This document shows positions 17,484-18,635 of a DNA stretch of 64,000 nucleotides, piece after piece (the first letter of the stretch is position 1; the number at the start of each line of letters is the position of its first letter). Under the pieces are notes generated by a model. It was not told where the DNA came from, searched no databases, and worked only from the letters and a program-made list of their open reading frames with translations. This stretch comes from Acephala macrosclerotiorum (lineage: Eukaryota > Ascomycota > Leotiomycetes > Helotiales > Mollisiaceae): positions 42,669 to 106,668 of the forward strand of contig MU119394.1 of the NCBI GenBank assembly GCA_014904845.1. The letters are read 5' to 3'. Position numbers and translations under genes: made by a program.

Positions 17484-18635
17484 ATGCAATTCTCCCACCT
17501 CATCAGCACTTTCCTTGCCCTCACGGCCACCACAGTTGCTGCCCCATCCCCACAATCAATCGATTGCTGGTCGACATGCTCAACTAGTATGTCAAACTCT
17601 GCCTTTTGTTGAGAAGATATCTTGGGAGCTGAGCTTTTGGAAAAGTCTTTCGGAAGAGCTCAGCTCCTGTACTCTTCGAAATTTGAGCAAATAGCTTACT
17701 TTTTTCTCGATAGACTGCATCTCTGCTGGGAATATACGCGGGGGGCTCTGCGATTCCGCAGGGACTTGGTAAGCTGATCCCATGGGCTTTCCACTGTGTT
17801 TACATTGCTAATTGATCGCAGCACTTGCCTCACTGGGGCCAAAAGAGATGCCATGCCCGAGCCACAATCAGCTGAGATTAACTGCTGGAGCACTTGCAGC
17901 ACCGACGTAAGCATCCTCTTCCTCTTTATTATTTTACAAATCGGATTTTCTCCTAGCAAATGATTCGCTCTTCTTGACCACGTTGTATCGGAACAGGGTG
18001 ACCCAGGACAAATGCACCCCTCCTTACTCTTTGCAAGCAAGCTGACTCTTCTTTCTCATTCAGTGCGTCATGGCAGGTTCTCTGCGCGGTGGCCTTTGCG
18101 ATTCTTCTGGGTGAGCACAATTCAAGTGCTCTGCTTAGCTATGCAAAATACTGATGAGCTTCACAGAACCTGTACCTGCCTAACGGGTGCCAAGAAGGAG
18201 CGTGAGGCAGCTCCCGCTCCTCAATCTGCCGTCATCGACTGCTGGAGTACATGCAGCACTGACGTAAGTCTTTCCCTCTCATCTACGAAACATTGCTGAC
18301 ATGGAACAGTGCGTCAAGGGCGGAAGTCTTCGAGGTATGAGCTTTGGACTCTTAATTTATGGAAAGAAAAGCATACTAATTCGATGAGTAGGGGGTTTGT
18401 GCGACGCATCTGGCACCTGTACATGTCTCGAAGGAGTCAAGGAGCGTAAGGTGACTATCAGCAAGAGACAACTTGAGTGCTACGAGACTTGCAGCACCAA
18501 CTGCATCGCTGGTAAGGCTACAATTGCTCCTCCTAAACAGCTCTCGCGATCTTCATAGAAAGTAAACTGACTCAAATAGGAGGAGATGTAAAGGGTGGTA
18601 TGTGCTCTTCTGACGGGACTTGCACCTGCTTGTAA
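17484..18635 (+). CDS. Secreted four-unit defensin-like (CS-alpha-beta-like) cysteine-rich precursor
   Basis: Predicted join 17484-17586, 17714-17768, 17822-17906, 18064-18110, 18167-18263, 18310-18334, 18392-18511, 18580-18635 (195 aa); phases agree across all seven introns. Residues 1-20 are a signal peptide (MQFSHLISTF...VAA). Four similar units follow, each with six cysteines spaced C-x3-C-x3-C-x10-C-x5-C-x-C. Core motifs are CWSTCST.C and GGLCD..GTCTCL. The C-x3-C...GxC...CxC pattern is that of the CS-alpha-beta fold, and C-x10-GGxC matches plectasin-type fungal defensins, although the first loop is unusually short. Units are joined by linkers with PxPQS and basic sites: KR after unit 1, KKER after unit 2, KR before unit 4. 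These suggest Kex2 cleavage into several peptides. The mature units are near neutral, not strongly cationic, so antimicrobial activity is only one option; an effector or signalling role is also possible. Confidence 0.8.

Follow-up and report, generated by a model that had tools for sequence, protein, structure and literature searches.

Does a secreted protein that repeats the same six-cysteine unit four times act as one molecule, or is it a store from which separate peptides are cut, and what kind of peptides would these be? The question is raised by a gene at positions 17484 to 18635 (+ strand) of a 64,000-nucleotide stretch of contig MU119394.1 of the helotialean fungus Acephala macrosclerotiorum, the whole of which is referred to below as the window. 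Judged from its sequence and from structural models of homologs, the product is a secreted defensin-like precursor of the cysteine-stabilized alpha-beta (CS-alpha-beta) type, with a first cysteine loop of three residues. We consider it reasonably probable that Kex2, Kex1-type and Ste13-type steps would release four separate mini-defensins from this precursor, likeliest for competition or microbiome control.

Structure and copy number of the four-unit gene

The original prediction had joined eight exons by reading phase, and this model proved right to the base: the ATG lies at 17484, the stop codon ends at 18635, and the 588 nucleotides of joined exons encode 195 residues with no internal stop. 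Exon 1 (17484..17586) encodes the signal peptide (about residues 1 to 19 or 20, by eye), an AP-SP-Q stretch and the start of unit 1, and is followed on the same strand by exons 2 (17714..17768), 3 (17822..17906), 4 (18064..18110), 5 (18167..18263), 6 (18310..18334), 7 (18392..18511) and 8 (18580..18635, including the stop codon). The seven introns, 46 to 157 bases long, are all GT-AG, and each contains at least one stop codon when read through in frame. The splicing is further supported by a separately annotated Cadophora protein (P0001), as it has the same four-unit layout. A TATAAA box at 17375..17380 (+ strand), 109 bases 5' of the ATG, is by its sequence a possible core promoter.

The four units share the spacing C-x3-C-x3-C-x10-C-x5-C-x-C (the cysteines are numbered C1 to C6 below) and occupy residues 28–55, 74–101, 122–149 and 167–194. 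By coordinates derived from the exon table, unit 1 spans 17565..17828 (exons 1–3), unit 2 spans 17883..18179 (exons 3–5), unit 3 spans 18240..18426 (exons 5–7) and unit 4 spans 18478..18629 (exons 7–8), all on the + strand. When the mature part of the protein was shuffled 200,000 times, at least one such unit arose in 100 shuffles and two units in none. Pairs of units are identical at 16–25 of 28 residues and at 49–63 of 84 nucleotides, with units 2 and 3 matching at 25 residues and 63 nucleotides. Nonsynonymous divergence (dN) between pairs was 0.10–0.43, while synonymous divergence (dS) was undefined through saturation in four of the six pairs and 0.74–0.89 in the other two, giving no clean dN/dS. 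As units 2 and 3 are close in protein yet share only 63 of 84 nucleotides, and dS is saturated, the sequences suggest that the units are old copies maintained by selection on the protein.

In micasin-type genes, as the text of PMC4165938 describes them, the helix is interrupted by a phase 0 intron and the c-loop by a phase 2 intron. Unit 2 has this same arrangement, its phase 0 intron lying just before C3 and its phase 2 intron within the c-loop, whereas the other units differ: unit 1 has introns in phases 1 and 2, the second inside the C5 codon, unit 3 has introns in phases 0 and 1, and unit 4 has a single phase 1 intron.

The gene appears once in our searches of the 69.66-Mb assembly (778 contigs), in which a protein search returned seven pieces, all from the four-unit gene. 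A search of the same genome with the Pfam family Defensin_2 gave no matches and missed the four-unit gene itself; this search is therefore blind to intron-split units, and a diverged paralog may escape it. Among 18 window frames scanned, none suggested a related gene adjoining the four-unit gene.

A family of relatives in Helotiales

With the precursor as query, 16 of the 5.8 billion proteins searched matched at E ≤ 1; the signal peptide plus unit 1 brought two proteins, and a 12-sequence alignment listed 24, of which nine had not appeared before. The relatives number 27 in total, and the family counts below cover 28 proteins, including that of A. macrosclerotiorum. Cadophora P0001 (204 residues) matched with an E-value of 6.5e-94 and 60% identity across 100% of the query, and the named protein closest to the unit 1 query was that of Mollisia scopiformis (73% over 61 residues). 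The named relatives come from Cadophora, Oculimacula, Rhynchosporium, Lachnellula, Hyaloscypha, Coleophoma, Mollisia, Halenospora and Cudoniella. A taxonomy look-up of eight species, which left out Rhynchosporium and Lachnellula occidentalis, placed all eight in Helotiales, in seven families. The database names of the relatives are "hypothetical" or "uncharacterized" protein, except that three UniRef names start with "Extracellular membrane".

We counted 64 unit starts in the 28 proteins. The 44 complete units, the four of A. macrosclerotiorum included, all have the spacing 3-3-10-5-1; the other 20 starts are truncated, mis-modelled or without one cysteine. Four unit starts occur in Cadophora, Oculimacula and one further protein, two in Mollisia, Halenospora and Cudoniella, and zero to three in other relatives. 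Unit pairs within a protein are identical at a mean of 19.6 of 28 residues (30 pairs). The last unit of the Mollisia protein is nearest to unit 4 of A. macrosclerotiorum (22/28) and its first unit is close to unit 3 (24/28); on these sequence matches an expansion from two units to four is plausible.

Many database models appear to go wrong at one place. Seven relatives terminate exactly at the glycine of the c-loop, and six others derail directly after it (by eye), four of these reading G-Y-V or G-F-V; the models that end at or overrun this glycine before C5 are P0002–P0010, P0020, P0021, P0023 and P0026. Since a GTATGT- or GTTTGT-like donor read through after GG would give G-Y-V or G-F-V, these residues point to an unrecognised phase 2 intron, and such a c-loop intron seems to be widespread in the family and to have spoilt many of its models. 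Separately, the Rhynchosporium members P0019 and P0027 look disrupted or poorly modelled, the P0027 unit having Tyr in place of C1.

Defensin-like assignment of the units

The A. macrosclerotiorum protein matches Defensin_2 with an E-value of 7.6e-9 and 35.8 bits (cut-off 20.4), the match running from just before C2 to C6, including RGGxC...CxC, and starting at position 9 of the 34 in the profile. In AlphaFold models of two homologs, P0001 and P0017, C-x3-C lies on a helix, two strands come after it and C-x-C is on the second of these; this helix-strand-strand order is predicted in all four units of P0001. Structure prediction had been proposed as a check on the defensin-like assignment; run on the homolog P0001, it gave the expected helix and strand four times, and together with the Defensin_2 score it upholds that assignment. 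The cysteine framework C...C-x3-C...C...C-x-C is present in all four A. macrosclerotiorum units and in all 44 complete units of the family, and the CS-alpha-beta fold is supported by prediction; such a fold would imply the disulphides C1–C4, C2–C5 and C3–C6.

The match to the arthropod defensins of Defensin_2 (insect defensin A, sapecin and lucifensin) stops short of their first loop, which has no counterpart here, C1 standing three residues before C2. This first loop is three residues long in 44 of 44 complete units, compared with 4–16 residues in insect defensins (PMC5116183), and the loop had rightly been called unusually short from the A. macrosclerotiorum sequence. Given this difference we describe the units as defensin-like and do not class them as arthropod-type defensins.

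It is very unlikely that the units have some other small fold, such as CFEM or a thrombospondin-like WSxCS repeat. The three UniRef names beginning "Extracellular membrane", which we take as an automatic CFEM label, would fit the former, and one unit had thrombospondin-1 as its best-ranked PDB entry (E 0.19), a match that we rejected as a chance WSxCS resemblance. CFEM domains have eight cysteines, against six per unit here, and a Pfam scan of the A. macrosclerotiorum protein listed no CFEM match at E ≤ 10; the predicted helix-strand-strand order and the Defensin_2 score above cut-off likewise speak for the CS-alpha-beta assignment.

Linkers with a Kex2-plus-Ste13 type signature

It is in the linkers that the analysis adds most to the original prediction. 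Linker 1 (residues 56–73; 17829..17882, + strand) reads LTGAKR, then DA MP EP, then QSAEIN; linker 2 (residues 102–121; 18180..18239, + strand) reads LTGAKKER, then EA AP AP, then QSAVID; and linker 3 (residues 150–166; 18427..18477, + strand) reads LEGVKERKVTISKR, then QLE. We took the last Arg before a unit and the first Gln after that Arg as the two ends of each linker core, a rule adopted after viewing the linkers; an earlier rule, based on the last KR or KK, trimmed to Gln in 14 of 27 linkers and was rejected, as it misplaced the site where KK precedes ER and overran QA. By the adopted rule the three linkers become KR/DA MP EP/QS, KKER/EA AP AP/QS and KR/QLE, and those of Cadophora become KR/SA EP EP/QT, KR/SP EP IP AP/QS and KR/EA GP AP EP EP EP/QS. 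The stretch after the signal peptide is often similar, e.g., A/AP SP/Q.

Among 37 internal linkers of the family, 31 contain Arg, in 29 cases with a Gln further on; the counts leave aside the six without Arg, the two without Gln after Arg, and linkers preceding the first full unit in fragments. The pattern R-(X-A/X-P)n-Q is pure in 24 of the 29 R...Q linkers (22 with at least one pair), 26 are of even length, and Ala or Pro, counted from the Arg, fills 84 of 90 even positions as against 25 of 93 odd ones. The PxPQS linkers that had been noticed at the outset are real, being only a part of this fuller pattern. The KR sites noticed with them are also real and fewer than had been implied, as KR stands in two of the three A. 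macrosclerotiorum linkers and the remaining one has KK followed by ER (KKER).

Candidate enzymes are encoded in the A. macrosclerotiorum genome: a Kex2-like frame has a P-domain, a membrane stretch and an acidic tail, and a 904-residue protein of the DPPIV family has one N-terminal membrane stretch. These we take, by eye and from general knowledge, to fit Kex2 and Ste13/DapB. By sequence, then, the linkers of these defensin-like units carry a Kex2-plus-Ste13 type signature, and they look suited to the series of proteases with which yeasts release their mating pheromone. X-Ala or X-Pro pairs after a Kex2 site are described as a Ste13 signature that in Ascomycota is "generally only dedicated" to alpha-pheromones, and that is also found in some repeat proteins of Basidiomycota and Glomeromycotina (PMC6339444).

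We infer from this signature the following route. The four compact six-cysteine units would fold within the secretory pathway; Kex2 would cleave after the Arg ending each upstream tail, a Kex1-type carboxypeptidase would strip the basic tail, and a Ste13-type dipeptidyl aminopeptidase would remove the X-Ala and X-Pro pairs stepwise, down to the Gln, which would probably cyclise to pyroglutamate. One transcript would in this way yield four near-neutral to acidic mini-defensins, each predicted to start with Gln and to be 32–38 residues long (unit 3 up to 46), and outside the hypha they would most likely serve in chemical competition or in controlling the microbiome. With three disulphides each, their calculated monoisotopic masses in the Gln and pyroglutamate forms are 3562.43 and 3545.41 for unit 1, 3781.49 and 3764.46 for unit 2, 3775.57 and 3758.54 for unit 3 (4717.14 and 4700.11 should cleavage occur only at SKR), and 3242.21 and 3225.18 for unit 4.

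The units might instead stay joined, as a string of four defensin domains on flexible Pro-rich linkers for which multivalency is the point, although we think this unlikely. KR is absent from linker 2 of A. macrosclerotiorum (KKER) and from 15 of the 31 Arg linkers of the family, with a further six linkers lacking Arg altogether, and there is a precedent in MtDef5, whose two CS-alpha-beta domains on a short linker can, when joined, outperform their parts (PMC5700942). MtDef5 differs in being a plant-type defensin with four disulphides and a net charge of +16 that was studied in its joined form (PMC5700942). Multivalency alone would leave unexplained both the bias of Ala and Pro toward even positions and the growth of the pure linkers by pairs. 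Since KR is lacking from linker 2 and from many of the relatives' linkers, release may be partial.

A number of results weigh against the release of defensin-like peptides by this route. Only two of the ten homologs scanned exceed the Defensin_2 cut-off, and four of the ten, including the four-unit Cadophora P0001, match no family at E ≤ 0.01. Foldseek found no PDB match to the four-unit model and one irrelevant PDB match to the two-unit model, a second look finding none among eight chains. The unit profile matched PDB sequences weakly (best E 0.045); four of its six rows were defensins by name (insect defensin A and three others, of which two are mutants), one was a tick salivary protein and one a "venom polypeptide". 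The full-length profile gave three weak rows, of which one was insect defensin A (E 1.7) and the other two were unrelated. In 50,000 shuffles within linkers the figure of 24 pure linkers was never attained, but the linkers share descent and the rule was settled after a poorer first one, so that the linker statistics are descriptive. Exceptions to the pattern comprise five impure linkers among the 29, two Arg linkers without Gln and six linkers without Arg, and the residue before the Arg in the 31 linkers is K in 16, E in six, A in four, T and L in two each and Q in one. Where QA follows, the Ste13 preference alone would not halt at the Gln. As to activity, the c-loop lacks K, R or H in 43 of 44 family units, the four of A. 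macrosclerotiorum included, and Zytrisin-1, with no basic residue in its c-loop, was inactive (PMC5234102). AfusinC is an acidic fungal defensin active against Gram-positive bacteria, but it is said to retain a positive loop residue (PMC6181372), which makes it a weak precedent for a family in which 43 of 44 c-loops have none.

Possible functions

We are less sure of the function than of the processing. Competition, or control of the microbiome, in the extracellular space is the role that we favour, and the chief alternatives are signalling and a protein whose domains stay joined. The charge had been put at near neutral from the A. macrosclerotiorum gene, and in the family it is near-neutral to acidic, 39 of the 44 complete units having a net charge below zero. 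This charge, together with the absence of basic c-loop residues in 43 of 44 units, would suit released peptides that serve as signals, pheromone-like or growth-regulating, rather than as antimicrobials, a possibility we rate as improbable. The dedication of the Ste13 signature to alpha-pheromones in Ascomycota would also suit it, as would the proposal that Kex2-processed repeat proteins (KEPs) bearing this signature are hormones (PMC6339444). Signals are harder to reconcile with the defensin-like fold and homology, and with the differences between units of one protein (mean 19.6/28), as the repeats in pheromone precursors are said to be identical or almost identical.

Several of the named relatives belong to genera known to live with plants, which we counted in favour of secreted effectors or channel blockers acting on a plant host or on small animals. 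We regard such a role as quite unlikely. A short first loop has been linked to channel blocking, and toxin-like fungal defensins exist (PMC5116183, PMC13199095), yet the KCxN motif around C4 that marks potassium-channel-blocking defensins and scorpion toxins (PMC5116183) is absent, with no Lys before C4 in any of the 44 units. Cudoniella, Halenospora and Lachnellula also have members, giving no clear tie to one way of life.

Comparison with known precursors

The precursor shares a signal peptide and the C-x3-C and C-x-C motifs with fungal defensin-like peptides such as plectasin, micasin and the fDEF families of Zhu and co-workers, and it differs from them in its three-residue first loop, its four units and its mostly acidic to neutral charge. 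The original prediction went too far in holding known fungal defensins to be single-unit: five precursors, maglosin, beauvesin2, manisin, pochlasin2 and asosin, could release two defensins (PMC4165938), and Bizyarsin is a two-domain fungal defensin precursor (PMC5234102). Tandem units are therefore not new in kind, although these precursors have two units where the present family has up to four. The table in PMC4165938 assigns the two defensins of beauvesin2, manisin, pochlasin2 and asosin to different fDEF classes, whereas the units described here are closely related.

With the alpha-pheromone precursors of Ascomycota and with KEPs the precursor has in common that it is secreted and has repeated cores, each preceded by a basic site and then X-A or X-P pairs; it is unlike them in that the cores are six-cysteine defensin-like units. 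The word "defensin" does not occur in the main text of two KEP surveys. No fungal defensin precursor with three or four units was found among the matches listed in the literature searched, which covered few subscription papers, figures or supplements, and neither a three-residue first loop nor a Ste13-type linker on a defensin was among those matches. The claim that the combination is new is accordingly narrowed, as tandem units and acidic charge (AfusinC, PMC6181372) were known, while a Kex2/Ste13-type linker on defensins was not found described in the parts of the literature covered.

Other genes in the window

Elsewhere in the window there is a 6-phosphogluconate dehydrogenase-like gene in two open pieces (13230–14757, + strand; NAD_binding_2 and 6PGD). 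On the − strand are pieces of an AMP-binding (adenylation) enzyme, the C-terminal piece falling under its cut-off (6103–7463), a purine nucleoside permease (NUP) family gene (34469–35365), a phosphoenolpyruvate (PEP) mutase-like piece with a short in-frame SVKEGS repeat near its end (39759–40172), and open frames with ankyrin repeats (57251–59398).

Implications

In the broadest form of our proposal, which we hold at an even chance, helotialean fungi would run folded mini-defensins through a production line of the alpha-pheromone type: a single transcript would give up to four distinct CS-alpha-beta peptides, and Kex2, Kex1 and Ste13 would trim each of them to a precise N-terminal Gln or pyroglutamate. 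With the first loop cut to three residues, three cysteines would line one helix, and a three-disulphide defensin of uncommonly small size would result. The sets of two to four units, which differ by species, would be mixtures tuned to different targets or a defensin-based signal. New here, as far as the literature searched goes, are the presence of up to four units, the three-residue first loop and the Ste13-type linkers on defensins, and the family joins two bodies of work that we did not find joined in our searches, on fungal defensins and on Kex2-processed repeat proteins. It illustrates how far a defensin's first loop can be shortened, and the exact masses of the peptides can be predicted for culture filtrate. 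The proposed processing would be a natural means for a single gene to supply several disulphide-rich peptides, and in Ascomycota it would take the Ste13 signature beyond pheromones; if true, these precursors would form a class uniting KEPs and defensins.
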